Shown in pieces: positions 7,315-20,506 of a stretch of DNA of 64,000 nt. Source of the DNA: Maribacter sp. HTCC2170 (GTDB lineage: Bacteria > Bacteroidota > Bacteroidia > Flavobacteriales > Flavobacteriaceae); the NCBI RefSeq assembly GCF_000153165.2, contig NC_014472.1:1733501-1797500 (forward strand). The letters are read 5' to 3'. A program made the position numbers and the translations under genes. Below the pieces are notes generated by a model, which was given only the letters and a program-made list of their open reading frames with translations, ran no database searches and had not been told where the DNA came from. Numbering within the stretch: position 1 is the first letter of the stretch; each line of letters begins with the position of its first letter.

Positions 7315-7389
<75 letters not shown>

Positions 7390-11014: not shown

Positions 11015-12355
11015 TTACTTTACTAAGTTGATTTCAACTCTTCTGTTTTGTTTTCTACCTGATCTTGTATTGTTAGTAGCAATTGGCTTGTCTTCACCGT
11101 AACCGATTGCAGACAATCTACTAGAACCAATTCCTTTGTCGATTAAGAAATCACGAACAGAATTTGCTCTAGACTCAGACAATGTTTGGTTTAATTTAGC
11201 ACTACCAACGCTATCAGTGTGACCTTCAACAGTAAACTTAGCAGTTGGGTACTCACTCAATATTTGAATGATATCAACCATTACTGAAGTTGACTCAGCT
11301 TTAATAGAAGATTTACCAGTGTCAAACAAGATAGTTCTTGCATAGTCGTTCAATTGTTTTTGAACTTCTTCAGTTACTTCTGGGCAACCATTGTTTGCAA
11401 CAGTACCAGCAACATCAGGACATTGATCATCTTTATCTAAAACACTATCACCATCTTTATCAGTCCAAGGGCATCCTTTGTTTTCAGAAGGACCAGCTTC
11501 GTTAGGACAAGAATCATCTTTATCAGCAACACCGTCACCGTCAGCATCAGGACAACCTGCAAGAGCAGCAGTACCAGCTTCGTTAGGACAAGCATCATCT
11601 TTATCAGCAACACCGTCACCGTCAGCATCAGGACAACCGTTCATTTCTTTAGAACCAGCAGCATTAGGACAGCTATCTTTGCTATCTTCTATGCCATCGC
11701 CATCTGCATCAGGACAACCATTGAATGCCTCAAGACCAGCAACTTCTGGACAAGCATCATCTTTGTCATAAATACCATCACCATCGGTATCTGTACCACC
11801 AAATTTAATGGCAAGACCGGCTAAGTGTTGAAAATGCTTAACGCCATAATCTTCAAAAGCATGCTTATAGTTTGTTTGTAATGTAAGACCAATGTTTTCT
11901 GTAAACCAGAAATTAACACCTAATCCACCATTTACAGTACCAGCACCAATTTCATCAACCCATGTATAACCACCACCTATTTCTAAGAAAGGGTCAACAA
12001 CAGTGTTTTTAGCAAAATTGTACTTAATAGTACCGTCAAGTGCATAATAAGAAAGATCATCAACAGATGTATTTCCCCATTTGCTAATTTTATTTAAGGA
12101 ACCTCTTGCACCAACAGAGAAACCATCGCCTACTGATTTAGATACGCCAACGTAAGAGATAGAAGGAAGAATGTTCCAGTGGTCGCTTACATTAAAGAAG
12201 TCTTCACCAAACGAACTTACATCACCAGTTGGAAATACGTCAACGGCATTTACCCCAAAACTAACTTGCCAAGGGTTGTTCTCGTCTTGCGCTTGTATAC
12301 TGTTAAAGCCTACTACAAGTAAGGCAACAACCATTAATTTGCTAAGATGTTTCAT
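11015..12355 (-). CDS. OmpA-family outer-membrane protein with thrombospondin type 3 repeats
   Basis: 446 residues from the ATG at 12355 (the 12361 frame start is TTG). Order: signal peptide ending SIQAQ at about 23; an N-terminal ~170-residue beta-barrel of OmpA type; about five calcium-binding thrombospondin type 3 repeats ([15 protein letters not shown] pattern, about 190-320); then a C-terminal OmpA peptidoglycan-binding domain with [25 protein letters not shown] and [11 protein letters not shown]. It should tie the outer membrane to peptidoglycan. Two TSP3 units are near-identical at DNA level with an 81-base period (compare 11501 and 11582). It has its own promoter (12390-12420) and terminator, so it is a separate unit between the two AddAB-like genes. 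Confidence 0.93.
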
Positions 12356-16906: not shown

Positions 16907-17515
16907 ATGGCTTTTGAACTACCAAAATTACCTTATGCATATGATGCATTGGAACCACATATTGATGCCAGAACTATGGAAATTCACCATACTAAACATC
17001 ATAACGGATATACTAATAACCTTAATGGTGCAATAGCAGGAACAGACCTTGAAACCAAATCCATAGAGGATATCCTCGCAAATTTGGATATGGATAATGG
17101 TGCTGTTCGCAACAATGGAGGTGGTTTTTATAATCATGCGTTGTTCTGGGAAATAATGTCTCCGGATGGAGGCGGCGAACCTTCAGGTGAACTGGCTGAT
17201 GCCATAAATGAGGCTTTTGGGTCATTTGAATCTTTCAAAGAAAAATTTAGTAAGGCTGCAGGCACTAGATTTGGTTCTGGATGGGCCTGGCTATGTGTAC
17301 ATAAAGGGGGAAAGGTAGAAGTTTGTTCTACTCCGAACCAAGATAATTCACTTATGCCAAATGTTGGTTGCGGTGGCCATCCTATTTTAGGTTTGGATGT
17401 TTGGGAACATGCATATTATTTAAACTATCAGAATAGAAGACCTGATTATGTGAACGCATTTTTCAATGTTATAAATTGGAGCAAAGTATCTGAATTATAC
17501 GCTGCAAATAAGTAA
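16907..17515 (+). CDS. sodA: Superoxide dismutase, Mn/Fe family, Mn-type signature
   Basis: 202 residues, typical length. It dismutates superoxide to peroxide and oxygen in the cytoplasm; there is no signal peptide. Metal ligands are His27, His77, Asp164 and His168 ([25 protein letters not shown]). The second-shell pattern is of Mn type: Gly in the NNGGGFYNH segment and Gln145 in NQDN, whereas Fe enzymes place the Gln near the second His. The family includes cambialistic enzymes, so metal use is an inference. A 17-bp terminator follows at once, and the gene sits alone between the addA-like gene (divergent) and the small-RNA-like array. Confidence 0.93.
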
Positions 17516-17580: not shown

Positions 17581-17586
17581 AAATAG

Positions 17587-17657
17587 AAAAGGGCGGAGAA
17601 GCCTCCACCCTTTTCGTCCCAAATCTTACCATAAACTTAACCTACTTATGCTATGGC
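17587..17657 (-). ncRNA. Small-RNA-like unit 1 of 5 (divergent copy)
   Basis: On the minus strand a core starting CCATAGC (17656) runs about 45 bases into a terminator hairpin (17591-17610) and T-run. The hairpin pairs fully only as minus-strand RNA, where one position is a U-G wobble; the plus strand would have a C-A mismatch. The -7 box is TAATTTAG (17669-17662), one mismatch from consensus, with no clear -33. In this copy the core ATG of the others, read on the plus strand, is ATA, so a conserved plus-strand peptide is not supported. Ends are estimates from promoter and T-run. Confidence 0.65.
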
Positions 17658-17783
17658 ATGACTAAATTACTGGTATTGCGGGAAATAAAAAAGAATTTTT
17701 AACAAATTTTAGGTTTATAAAGCAGTCCACATATGTATTATGATCAATAAAAGTGAGTTTCCCCCTATTAATTATAGAGTAAT

Positions 17784-17854
17784 AAAAAAGGTAGAGCATT
17801 GCTCCACCTTTTTCCCCAAATCTTACCATGAACTTAACCTACTTATGCTATGGT
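17784..17854 (-). ncRNA. Small-RNA-like unit 2 of 5
   Basis: Promoter on the minus strand: TTTG ending at 17884, a 17-base spacer, TATGTTTG (17866-17859). The predicted RNA starts near 17854, carries the shared core (CCATAGC at 17853-17847 onward) and ends in a hairpin at 17790-17808 with a T-run. The hairpin has a G-U wobble on this strand where the other strand has an A-C mismatch. About 70 nt. No homology to a named RNA family is known to me. Confidence 0.7.
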
Positions 17855-17858
17855 CCTC

Positions 17859-17887
17859 CAAACATAGGGCATTAATCAAAACACAAA
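17859..17887 (-). promoter_or_regulatory. Promoter of small-RNA unit 2 (same at units 3 and 4)
   Basis: TTTG, 17-base spacer, TATGTTTG on the minus strand, a full match to the Bacteroidota consensus. Identical promoters lie at 18062-18090 and 18265-18293. Confidence 0.7.
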
Positions 17888-17987
17888 AAAGGTTTTAGAC
17901 AAGCTTCCTGATCTATGGTTGAAATACGTTTTCTACTGTTTAGTATTACAGGGATTATAAGAAGAGATTTGAGATGTAGATAAAAAT

Positions 17988-18057
17988 AAAAAGGTGGAGC
18001 ATTGCCCCACCTTTTTCCCCAAATCTTACCATGAACTTAACCTACTTATGCTATGGT
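17988..18057 (-). ncRNA. Small-RNA-like unit 3 of 5
   Basis: Same plan as unit 2: TATGTTTG at 18069-18062, core from about 18056, terminator hairpin 17993-18011 (G-U wobble only on the minus strand), T-run to 17988. The core sequence is identical to that of unit 2 as far as I can see. The hairpin differs at two bases, and stem pairing survives as wobble pairs. Confidence 0.7.
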
Positions 18058-18190
18058 CCTCCAAACATAGAACATTAATCAAAACACAAAAAAGGTTTTA
18101 GACAAACTTCCTGATCTATGGTTGAAATGCGTTTTCTACTGTTTAGTATTACAGGGATTGTAAGAAGAGATTTGAGATGTAGATAAAAAT

Positions 18191-18260
18191 AAAAAGGTGG
18201 AGCATTGCCCCACCTTTTTCCCCAAATCTTACCATGAACTTAACCTACTTATGCTATGGT
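18191..18260 (-). ncRNA. Small-RNA-like unit 4 of 5
   Basis: TATGTTTG at 18272-18265 with TTTG 17 bases upstream; core from about 18259; terminator hairpin 18196-18214, identical to unit 3, T-run to 18191. The first and last four bases of the core's 5' part (CCAU and AUGG) could close a loop containing an unpaired conserved stretch, which may be the functional part. Confidence 0.7.
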
Positions 18261-18418
18261 CCTCCAAACATAGAGCATTAATCAAAACACAAAAAAGGTT
18301 TTAGATGAAAACCCATATCCTTGGATAAAGTGTAAGGTCAGATAAAAATATCACTTTGATATTTTGTCGAATATGGAAATAGCAGGGAATGGGAATAGGT
18401 GTCATACGTGAGCAAAAT

Positions 18419-18490
18419 AAAAAAGGTGGAGAAGTCTCCACCTTTTTTGCCCCAAATCTTACCATGAACTTAACCTACTTATGCTATGGC
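18419..18490 (-). ncRNA. Small-RNA-like unit 5 of 5 (divergent copy)
   Basis: Core CCATAGC starts at 18489 and is conserved for about 40 bases; the terminator hairpin (18425-18442) is perfect on both strands, with a T-run to 18419. The -7 box is TACTTTAG (18502-18495), one mismatch. Sequence outside core and terminator differs from units 2-4, so conservation is limited to the predicted RNA. Confidence 0.65.
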
Positions 18491-18550
18491 AAGTCTAAAG
18501 TAGGCGGGCATGGTTCCATACGGACTAAAAACCCGTTCAAATGCATATAT

Positions 18551-18588
18551 TATCGATGAACTACACAATATTGTGTAGTTCATCGATA
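18551..18588. repeat. 38-bp perfect palindrome just after purF
   Basis: Two 19-base arms with no loop, 6 bases beyond the purF stop codon. On the minus strand no T-run follows (AATATATG), so it is a poor intrinsic terminator. It could stabilise the purF mRNA 3' end, extrude as a cruciform or bind a dimeric protein. I did not see a second copy in the window. Confidence 0.75.
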
Positions 18589-18594
18589 AAAGGT

Positions 18595-20493
18595 TTAATA
18601 GGCCCTTTCATTTTTTCCCTCAAAAAAGTTGATAAATGCTTGGTTTACCACCCTGTTGCCTCCGGGTGTTGGGTAGTTTCCAGTAAAGTACCAATCCCCT
18701 AAATTTTTTGGGCAGGCTTCATGTAGGCTTTCGATGGTCTGATAAATAATTTTTACCTCTGCTTTAATACCTTTTGGGCTTAAAAGTTCACCGATTTTTG
18801 CAGAAATCTGGTCGGCAGTAAATGGGGCATAGAAATCTTTTACATAATTAACTACATCATTGTCATGCGAGTTGGCTTGTTCTTTACATTTCTGATATAT
18901 CTTTTCAACTACATCCAAACTACTTTGGTCTTTGTGTAGCGCCAATGCTGCTCTAAAAGCGGCAAAATCCTCTAATTTTGCCATATCAATTCCGTAACAG
19001 TCTGGGTACCGAATTTGAGGGGCAGAAGAAACAACGATTATTTTTTTCGGAGATAACCTATCCAATATTCTAAGAATGCTTTTCTTAAGTGTTGTACCAC
19101 GTACAATACTGTCATCAATTATGACGAGATTATCATCTTTATCCACAGAGCCATATGAAATGTCATAAACATGGGCCACAAGGTCATCCCTGCTACTATC
19201 TTGGGTAATAAAGGTCCTAAGTTTGGCATCTTTTATGGCCACTTTTTCGATTCTGGGTCTCACAGCCAAAATATTGTGTAATTCTTCCCTAGTAATTTTT
19301 GTGCCAATCGATAGTATCTGTTCTTCCTTTTTTTGGTTCAAATAGTTTTGTGCCTCCTTGACCATTCCAAAAAATGAGGTCTCAGCTGTATTCGGTATAT
19401 AAGAAAAAACGGTCTTCTTTATATTATGGTCAATGGCATCTAAAATTTGGGGAAATAAAAGTTTCCCGAGCTCTTTTCTTTCTTGATAAATTTCTTTATC
19501 ACTTCCTCTCGAAAAATAGATGCGCTCAAAAGAACATGCTTTTCTTTCTTTCGGCTTTAAAACTTCCTGAATTGAAGAACTTCCGTCTTTTTTAATAATG
19601 ATTGCACTTCCTGGGTCCAGTTCACTAACTTTTTCAAAAGGAACATTAAACACGGTTTGAATCGCCGGCCTCTCAGAAGCAACAACAACTATTTCATCAT
19701 CTTTATAGTAATAAGCTGGTCTTATTCCTGATGGGTCTCTAAGGACAAATGCATCACCATGGCCCAACATTCCTGCCATCGTATACCCGCCATCAAAATT
19801 TTTGGCCGCCCTTCTTAGAATTTTCCTCAATTTCAATCGTTCAGCAATCAAAGGGGAAGCCTCAAGTTTATTATACCCTTCTTTCTTTATTTGCTTATAT
19901 AACTTTGCAACTGCGTCATCCAAAAAATGACCAATTTTTTCCATAACTGTTACAGTATCCGCCATTTCTTTTGGATGTTGGCCTAACTGAACAAGGTTGT
20001 CAAATAGCTCATGAACATTGGTCATGTTAAAATTACCGGCAACAATAAGGTTGCGATGCATCCAATTATTCTGTCTTAGAAAAGGATGCACACTTTCTAT
20101 ACTGTTCTTTCCGAAAGTACCATAACGCACATGACCTAAAAGTACTTCACCTATATATGGAATGTTTTTTTTCTGAGCGGCAACATCATCCTTGTATTCT
20201 GGATGTTCAACAAACGCCGTATTGATCCGATCATTGATTTGGTCAAAAATATCTTGAATAGGCTGTTTTTGAATTGAGCGTACACGGCTCATATAACGCT
20301 CGCCGGCATCCATATCTAATTTGATACTTGCAAAACCAGCACCATCCTGGCCTCGATTGTGTTGCTTCTCCATCATAAGGTACATTTTGTTTACCCCATA
20401 AAAGGCTGTACCATATTTCTCCTTATAATACTCAAGCGGTTTAAGTAAACGTATTACCGAAATTCCACATTCATGTTTAATTGCGTCACTCAT
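18595..20493 (-). CDS. purF: Amidophosphoribosyltransferase, long Bacteroidota type
   Basis: 632 residues from the ATG at 20493 (20496 would be TTG). It catalyses the first committed step of purine synthesis, PRPP plus glutamine to phosphoribosylamine. The N-terminal class II glutaminase has its nucleophile at Cys9 (KHECGISV), implying a short propeptide, plus KQHNRGQDGAG and GHVRYGT. The C-terminal phosphoribosyltransferase has the PRPP loop VIIDDSIVRGTTLKK. It is longer than the ~500-residue E. coli enzyme, with extra helical segments between the halves and a ~100-residue C-terminal extension. It is the last of four minus-strand genes (purN, rnhA, kinase, purF), though a terminator separates it from the kinase. 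Confidence 0.88.
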   Translation of the reverse strand: MSDAIKHECGISVIRLLKPLEYYKEKYGTAFYGVNKMYLMMEKQHNRGQDGAGFASIKLDMDAGERYMSRVRSIQKQPIQDIFDQINDRINTAFVEHPEYKDDVAAQKKNIPYIGEVLLGHVRYGTFGKNSIESVHPFLRQNNWMHRNLIVAGNFNMTNVHELFDNLVQLGQHPKEMADTVTVMEKIGHFLDDAVAKLYKQIKKEGYNKLEASPLIAERLKLRKILRRAAKNFDGGYTMAGMLGHGDAFVLRDPSGIRPAYYYKDDEIVVVASERPAIQTVFNVPFEKVSELDPGSAIIIKKDGSSSIQEVLKPKERKACSFERIYFSRGSDKEIYQERKELGKLLFPQILDAIDHNIKKTVFSYIPNTAETSFFGMVKEAQNYLNQKKEEQILSIGTKITREELHNILAVRPRIEKVAIKDAKLRTFITQDSSRDDLVAHVYDISYGSVDKDDNLVIIDDSIVRGTTLKKSILRILDRLSPKKIIVVSSAPQIRYPDCYGIDMAKLEDFAAFRAALALHKDQSSLDVVEKIYQKCKEQANSHDNDVVNYVKDFYAPFTADQISAKIGELLSPKGIKAEVKIIYQTIESLHEACPKNLGDWYFTGNYPTPGGNRVVNQAFINFFEGKNERAY

Positions 20494-20506
20494 CAATAAT
20501 CTAGAT

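Follow-up and report, generated by a model that had tools for sequence, protein, structure and literature searches.

The closest described system is FopS (RF04319), a set of paralogous Bacteroides sRNAs that pair at the translation starts of surface-protein mRNAs; the FopS seed, R1, lies in a single-stranded 5′ part that is followed by a terminator, and the targets are SusC mRNAs (PMC11697453). In the genus Flavobacterium, the sRNA Rfp18 is conserved, and its deletion lowers the levels of two metalloprotease mRNAs, as described in the accessible part of PMC9723704. Paralogous sRNA sets are also known as Qrr in Vibrio, LhrC in Listeria and OmrA/B in Enterobacteriaceae (all named in the available text of PMC11697453). 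The family described here is like these three sets, going by that account, in having several near-identical copies on overlapping (here predicted) targets, although they belong to other phyla and are likened to it by arrangement, not by sequence. Several of these sets depend on Hfq. Small RNAs can themselves be controlled by sponges, or target mimics, which are RNAs that carry copies of a target site and titrate the sRNA.

We analysed a window of 64,000 nucleotides, the whole stretch of DNA under study, which contains an array of five short units. These resemble FopS as multicopy paralogues from the same phylum with an intrinsic terminator and with start-region pairing, shown for FopS (in the available text of PMC11697453) and predicted here. 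In contrast, the two RNAs align only weakly (20.4 bits, with UUCAUGGUA and AGAUUU in common), the present RNA scores 20.0 and 20.4 bits with the FopS model, far below the 56-bit gathering cut-off, and the FopS model found no match in the array's own genome at E 0.001. Moreover, the 5′ end of FopS is described as single-stranded, whereas all five present units have a 5′ hairpin; the locus and the copy arrangement also differ, and the available text of PMC11697453 names no decoy family. Rfp18 of F. psychrophilum pairs through its third stem-loop, according to the accessible part of PMC9723704, whereas the present RNA has two, a comparison made by description alone; the present RNA may be one of the other Rfp1-89 RNAs. 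From the evidence presented below, we consider it probable that the units are multicopy trans-acting sRNAs that prevent mRNAs for surface proteins from being translated, and that target-mimic RNAs, made together with some of the targets, titrate them.

Five minus-strand units share a near-invariant core

A first-pass annotation had described five minus-strand units between sodA and purF, and the array indeed occupies 17581-18490 between these genes (Table 1), with a unit-to-unit spacing of 197, 203, 203 and 230 bp; the genes were named from their protein sequences, and that annotation gave the same names. Each unit consists of ACCATAGCATAAGTAGGTTAAGTTCATGGTAAGATTTGGGG or a near copy, then a G+C-rich hairpin, then a T run, and is 75-77 nt long, near the ~70 nt that had been proposed. 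The core, put at ~40 bases, measures 39 nt in the alignment of the five units (positions 2-40, invariant bar one C/T), and the intrinsic terminator ascribed to each unit folds as a hairpin in all five. The claim that conservation ends at the edges of the RNA could be kept only in part: it fails for units 2-4, which are conserved past the RNA edge because they also form a 203-bp tandem repeat with copies 97% and 69% identical to the reference, and it is refined by an upstream TANNTTTR box that also recurs at a fixed distance across the family. A terminator-stem position that is G-U in the RNA and a mismatch on the other strand occurs, as had been noted, in units 1 to 4; unit 5 has none. Elsewhere in the window, we noted tandem 81-bp repeats (11485-11785, ~3.5 copies), perhaps within a coding region because their length is a multiple of three.

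Table 1. Positions in the window of the units, their associated elements and the neighbouring genes
Feature	Position	Strand	Basis and remarks
sRNA unit 1	17581..17657	-	sodA-proximal subtype, UUUAUGG, GGGACGAAAAGGG terminator; alignment, folding; R1 107.3 bits (unit 1 is in R1)
sRNA unit 2	17780..17854	-	alignment, folding; R1 73.7 bits
sRNA unit 3	17981..18057	-	alignment, folding; R1 77.6 bits
sRNA unit 4	18184..18260	-	alignment, folding; R1 77.6 bits
sRNA unit 5	18414..18490	-	purF-proximal, first in array; alignment, folding; R1 106 bits (unit 5 is in R1)
-7-like box TAATTTAG, unit 1	17662..17669	-	sequence; family-wide TANNTTTR peak
-7-like box TATGTTTG, unit 2	17859..17866	-	sequence; family-wide TANNTTTR peak
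-7-like box TATGTTTG, unit 3	18062..18069	-	sequence; family-wide TANNTTTR peak
-7-like box TATGTTTG, unit 4	18265..18272	-	sequence; family-wide TANNTTTR peak
-7-like box TACTTTAG, unit 5	18495..18502	-	sequence; family-wide TANNTTTR peak
Intrinsic terminator hairpin, unit 1	17586..17615	-	folding; helix covariation
Intrinsic terminator hairpin, unit 2	17785..17813	-	folding; helix covariation
Intrinsic terminator hairpin, unit 3	17988..18016	-	folding; helix covariation
Intrinsic terminator hairpin, unit 4	18191..18219	-	folding; helix covariation
Intrinsic terminator hairpin, unit 5	18419..18448	-	folding; helix covariation
Perfect inverted repeat, 20-bp arms, TCGATGAA-N18-TTCATCGA	18550..18589	.	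inverted-repeat search
purF	18595..20496	-	upstream neighbour, same strand as array; conserved synteny
sodA	16907..17515	+	convergent neighbour of array; conserved synteny

The family is widespread in Flavobacteriaceae and holds its place

We searched the array's own genome (G000, 3.87 Mb) with R1, a model made from units 1 and 5, which recovers the five units at 74-107 bits (units 1 and 5 by construction) and finds nothing else above 27 bits. By blastn, unit 5 has matches in 120 of 149 Flavobacteriaceae genomes (119 of 148 by genus), counts that in some genomes include antisense matches to the anti-RNAs described below; the seven matches in the own genome are the five units and two anti-RNAs. 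A model search across Bacteroidota was among the checks proposed with the first-pass annotation; in a phylum-wide draw, R1 matched 25 of the 30 listed family genomes and 4 of 266 others. We rejected these four as relatives outside the family; they are weak (≤37.7 bits), and we take them to be matches to the terminator because none of the four loci contains AGTAGGTTAAG. R1 also matched every one of the 17 genomes listed for g127, the largest genus in the draw, which we take to be Flavobacterium. If that assignment is right, the Rfp list of PMC9723704 may include an unrecognised copy.

A named scan matched at least 118 stretches. Among the 80 matches listed, five were labelled Bacteroidetes or Bacteroidota only and one Flavobacteriia, and the other listed matches carried the label Flavobacteriaceae or the name of a genus that belongs to this family (Maribacter, Zobellia, Flavobacterium, Aquimarina and Winogradskyella among others); the closest PurF among the matched loci (L114, labelled uncultured Maribacter) is 87.5% identical. 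Both purF and sodA are present at 77 of these 118 loci, and one or both at 111, flank length permitting. In 20 longer loci (L039-L058, 14-15 kb), the units are accompanied by both genes at 15, by sodA alone at L048, by purF alone at L049 and L052, and by neither at L053 and L058.

Since units 2-4 form a 203-bp tandem repeat, we considered that the core might be a mobile or DNA-level repeat rather than a set of RNA genes, but it occupies mostly one locus across genera, has no dispersed copies in the own genome, where the genome-wide repeat envisaged as a counter-case by the first-pass annotation reduces to five copies, and shows compensatory changes in the terminator stem. Nor did any of 50,697 phage or 72,556 plasmid records match it. 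We rejected this reading on the own-genome, phage and plasmid searches, and regard it as very improbable.

The first-pass annotation knew of no named family with this core, and no Rfam family reaches its own cut-off on it. In the Rfam scan of the window only a tRNA (7316-7389) reached the gathering score, nothing reached it at seven anti-RNA, target and unit loci, and the best sub-threshold alignments rest mainly on terminator-like hairpins. Among open-access full texts, judged by titles and abstract openings, we found no description of the core. The putative RNA family of the five units is unnamed, and it runs through much of Flavobacteriaceae.

Folding, covariation and a fixed upstream box point to a structured RNA

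The predicted fold of all five units comprises a 5′ hairpin, a linker without pairing and a hairpin terminator (z-scores -3.7 to -4.5), and it was equalled by no more than 1 of 200 dinucleotide shuffles. In a structural alignment of 150 relatives (A6, 137 distinct), 98.6% of cells are paired, and 97.7% in helix 1, the 5′ hairpin, although these counts lean towards the model because the alignment was fitted to it. Both sides change in 11 of the 13 pairs of the terminator helix, and the covariation score was 0.298, compared to 0.131 in shuffles and ≤0.085 with the partner slid. The 5′ hairpin is near-frozen: 3 of its 11 pairs show both-sided changes (6 cells in total), 4 vary on one side only and 3 never vary, and support for this predicted helix rests on near-invariance rather than covariation.

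A TANNTTTR box was present within -27 to -21 relative to AGTAGG in 224 of the 367 unit contexts, most often at -23 (179); the 367 contexts contain AGTAGGTTAAG by selection (one row offset), and one organism is perhaps counted twice. The gap between ATGGTA and GATTTGG is one base in 213 of the 367 units and none in 151, with 3 off-pattern. Thus, the core is not coding, since a 1-nt length difference shifts any reading frame. A small peptide made by each unit from ATGGTAAGATTTGGG (MVRFG..) would fit the 55- and 54-aa open frames that units 2 and 5 have from that point, but not this subtype difference, on which we rejected it, nor a downstream terminator stem that varies by paired changes; we give the idea almost no credence.

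The first-pass annotation had argued from the G-U position for selection on the structure of the minus-strand RNA, and this argument is strengthened by conservation in 120 of 149 family genomes, by the covariation of the terminator, by the box at a fixed distance and by the frame-shifting 1-nt difference. Its reading of the units as a putative paralogous small-RNA family is likewise supported at the level of sequence.

The inverted repeat between purF and unit 5, which lies ~50 bp upstream of the -7 box of unit 5, is a candidate operator of the array. In other genomes, too, TTCATCGA upstream of first units often lies within such an inverted repeat (TCGATGAA-N18-TTCATCGA). Of the 367 unit contexts, 63 have TTCATCGA, in either orientation, in the 250 nt upstream, compared to 3.5 occurrences expected, and the exact motif occupies -84 to -78 before 41 of 172 first units, compared to 4 of 195 later units. 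The motif of the array also occurs at the anti-RNA promoters, and is common to many first sRNA units and most anti-RNAs.

Complements of the loop and linker lie at the starts of surface-protein mRNAs

The loop of the predicted sRNA reads AAGUAGGUUAAG and the single-stranded linker before the terminator reads GAUUUGGGG; no other parts of the RNA are as constant. Complements of both are conserved in two places, the starts of mRNAs for exported proteins and the anti-RNAs. We searched the 149 genomes with a pattern blind to genes and promoters (CCCAAATCN{11,34}CTTAACC), and examined 30 of its 48 matches as loci. While the bare count was little enriched (48, compared to 35 for the reversed pattern), 18 of the 30 loci lie at a translation start, compared to 505 of 12,000 segments drawn at random from these loci; the other 12 are not at a start. 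The 18 loci comprise one SprB-like gene (10 loci), a second gene (3) and five other genes (5), and represent only 7 independent genes because the 10 and the 3 are orthologues of two genes. The SprB-like protein has ~2,850 aa, or 2,839-2,926 aa in the three copies that were read to the end, and the copy that was scanned contains SprB repeats (PF13573) as well as a type IX sorting domain (PF13585). The second gene encodes 1,607 aa in both copies that were read to the end, and PF13585 is also present in its scanned copy. The N-termini of the five others look exported by eye.

A protein search yielded 14 N-terminal SprB-like orthologues, including that of the own genome (G000:2467435, 55% identity over the 400 residues used), and the pattern itself supplied 7 more. 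The loop complement stands directly before the ATG in 20 of these 21 orthologues (CTTAACCT in 17, ATTAACCT in 3), and in 13 of the 14 that came from the protein search; at one SprB-like orthologue, L490, the script found no start-site complement. The own genome has no exact match of the gene-blind pattern, and its SprB-like site reads CCCCAATTC. The linker complement lies ~30-45 nt upstream of the ATG in the SprB-like mRNAs.

Predicted duplexes of the core with the 20 SprB-like starts have a mean of -27.5 kcal/mol, compared to -16.6 for 200 shuffled cores (best -21.5, none as low as the real core), and the mean at 53 gene starts of the window is -14.1 kcal/mol; these energies ignore accessibility, and the longest duplexes require opening of AUGG in the hairpin stem. 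Values in the own genome were -30.1 to -33.6 kcal/mol for the SprB-like gene, -28.9 to -31.4 for a 35-aa ORF and -21.7 to -25.9 for a collagen-repeat protein. The start codon of the 35-aa ORF is predicted to pair with the CAU of the sRNA's CCAU, and that of the SprB-like gene with C8, A9 and U14 across a 4-nt bulge. Thus, the predicted sRNA has conserved complementarity to the start regions of unlinked mRNAs, as is expected of a trans-acting sRNA.

Complementarity alone fits either sign of control, and a linker complement so far upstream of the SprB-like ATG could remodel the 5′ UTR. We therefore considered that the sRNAs might activate their targets, by 5′ UTR pairing that opens an inhibitory structure or protects the mRNA, with the anti-RNAs acting as a brake. 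However, the loop complement abuts the start codon, and both the own SprB-like gene and the 35-aa ORF have their start codon within the duplex, which is the usual geometry of translational blocking. Activation is accordingly unlikely in our view, and we favour repression.

Targeting of SusC mRNAs as in FopS found no support in the own genome: duplexes at 30 loci averaged -13.1 kcal/mol (best -16.7), compared to -14.1 at the gene starts of the window, for 30 of 49 TIGR04056 matches, 8 of them whole-length and over the cut-off, with the start taken as the first ATG of the longest ORF.

A family of putative anti-RNAs carries several target-like sites

A pattern search of the own genome for the complement of the core (ATCTTACCATGAAC) gave 61 matches, five of them the units and two the anti-RNAs, compared to 50 for the control. 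As a marker of target starts the pattern was rejected, being hardly enriched and yielding no convincing start among 26 loci (L246-L271). Two of its matches led to an anti-RNA array ~0.3 Mb from the sRNA array, downstream of a gene for an HflX-like GTPase (identified by eye), in which plus-strand units, with two clear copies, have their own -7-like boxes and terminators. Unit A of this array is complementary to nt 13-41 of the sRNA with one mismatch (-34.8 to -39.9 kcal/mol). Besides the two clear copies, G000:1456002-1456153 (L309) holds a more diverged unit of this kind, whose complementarity is weaker (-24.3 to -24.8 kcal/mol, core only).

By blastn, the anti-RNA has relatives in 39 of 149 genomes, although some of the matches are terminators or sRNA units themselves and many of the weaker ones cover the terminator only. 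We aligned 23 units, present in 14 of the 17 stretches examined and representing 10 genomes (own included, one of the own genus; a spurious match, L305, was left out), and these have a fixed geometry. TTCATCGA lies at -91/-92 (17 of 23 within one mismatch) and TTCACAACA boxes lie at -62/-63 in 19 units and at -41/-42 in all 23; these are followed by TANNTTTACA, CCCCAAATC, a variable stretch and TGAACTTAACC, and then usually by one or two more such blocks and the terminator, such that the anti-RNAs mostly have two or three sites complementary to the sRNA. The 23 units average 2.65 linker-complement and 2.57 loop-complement blocks, compared to 0.38 and 0.23 in mononucleotide shuffles, with blocks that were chosen after the alignment was seen. 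The bases opposite AUGGUA, which closes the 5′ hairpin of the sRNA, vary between genera; the blocks opposite the loop and linker are kept. Among promoter sites of this kind, the 40 that were classed as anti-RNA by a loose match have a mean duplex energy of -27.4 kcal/mol, compared to -17.7 for 60 shuffled cores (best -21.1), and two of the 40 are apparently copies of the second RNA type described below (30 counted under a looser test order, compared to 28). The anti-RNAs would thus be a second RNA with conserved complementarity to the sRNA, the mark of an RNA sponge.

A sequence model of the anti-RNA promoter and 5′ part (R2) had matches at E < 1e-6 in 24 of 149 genomes (in some, to the promoter part only). 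All 24 have at least three blastn matches of unit 5, a co-occurrence that is not independent evidence if the 24 genomes form one clade. Three genera without an R2 match (G005, G109 and G141) have start-site complements at the second adhesin gene, and the function at mRNAs may thus be older than the decoy.

The anti-RNA promoters are the more elaborate ones, with TTCATCGA, tandem TTCACAACA, a -7 box and fixed spacing, as might be expected if the anti-RNAs were the regulators and the five-unit RNAs their sponge. However, it is anti-RNA-like sequence that the mRNAs carry, that is, sites complementary to the five-unit RNA, which makes the latter the would-be mRNA binder. Furthermore, many genera that lack a strong match to the anti-RNA model, including the three just mentioned, do have the five-unit family. 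We hold this exchange of roles to be quite improbable, and retain the five-unit RNA as the regulator.

A circuit that may control surface adhesion

Flavobacteriaceae are major degraders of algal polysaccharides, and many glide on surfaces with type IX adhesins. To our knowledge, post-transcriptional control has been little mapped in this family. From the units, their conservation and structure, the complementary sites and where these lie at start codons, and the shared upstream motif, all of which are observed, we propose that the five units are paralogous genes, presumably transcribed, of a ~75-nt trans-acting base-pairing sRNA, each with its own promoter and terminator. The sRNA would use a bipartite seed, made up of the loop of the 5′ hairpin and the single-stranded linker, to pair with the start regions of mRNAs for exported surface proteins, chiefly the giant SprB-repeat type IX adhesin. 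Repression as the direction of control, and titration, are inferred from the pairing geometry: with the start codon inside the predicted duplex, translation would most likely be blocked, and the anti-RNAs of this clade, expressed from tandem TTCACAACA promoters with mostly two or three target-like sites, would most likely be decoys that titrate the sRNA. Some mRNAs under the same promoter type would be induced, presumably by a regulator, while the anti-RNAs titrate the sRNA.

Taken as a whole, we lean, if only slightly, towards a previously undescribed post-transcriptional circuit of Flavobacteriaceae, in which a near-frozen multicopy sRNA uses its bipartite seed to repress a programme of surface adhesion (SprB-like type IX adhesins, exported lipoproteins and tiny ORFs), and co-regulated multi-site decoys, driven by a promoter class common to several targets, release it as a threshold switch. 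Compared to the usual sponges, the decoy here differs as a multicopy family with mostly two or three sites and with a promoter class common to some target mRNAs.

The whole core is near-frozen, including the helix strands, beyond what seeds alone need, and FopS RNAs bind the RRM protein RbpB (available text of PMC11697453). Thus, the core could be a protein-binding RNA that titrates an RNA-binding protein, with the complementarity elsewhere being secondary. This would leave unexplained why the start sites of several unrelated genes, and the anti-RNAs, are complementary to the core, and we think it improbable as the whole account, although protein binding and base-pairing can both hold.

On the base-pairing account, the findings suggest a circuit through which surface adhesion and gliding are controlled. 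An sRNA that is found family-wide, has named start-site targets in adhesin genes and is matched by a decoy family would make adhesin control open to simple reporter and deletion tests, and would be a second example, beside FopS, of multicopy sRNAs aimed at surface proteins in this phylum, the targeting here being predicted.

Other transcripts of the tandem promoter class

The class of tandem TTCACAACA promoters comprises 122 distinct sites, of which 40 are anti-RNA, 28 belong to a different conserved RNA and 54 are others. Among these 54, 37 have the linker complement, 23 the loop complement and 18 both, compared to 1.8, 3.5 and 0.14 in shuffles, an enrichment that is partly ascertained because R2, which was used to choose the loci, contains one site. 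Cases in the own genome are the 35-aa ORF (R2 match G000:1500625) and the collagen-repeat protein (G000:111821), which has a signal peptide by eye.

We also noted two conserved tiny ORFs (M-EAQINH..KKLFML and MLYDTYGEEYL..ELDY), at L359 in the own genome (35 aa) and at L379, L383, L393 and others (32 aa). Many of them have an sRNA-complementary 5′ UTR, and the two sequences scanned had no Pfam match.

The different conserved RNA-like unit has the core TTTTTTCATTTTCATATAGTGTTCTCGTAAAAGAG and then a terminator, under the tandem TTCACAACA promoter, and was seen at L361, L374, L375, L377, L380, L381 and more loci, as well as at an R2 match in the own genome (G000:2836919). The linker complement occurs in 1 of its 28 copies. 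We also observed a hybrid type under the TTCACAACA promoter (L401, L421, L424 and L426), from which it seems that some copies of this second RNA may bind the sRNA; the hybrid has the motif CCCAAATC(T/C)TA(T/C)CA, which at L401, L421 and L424 is followed by TATAGTGTT of the second RNA.
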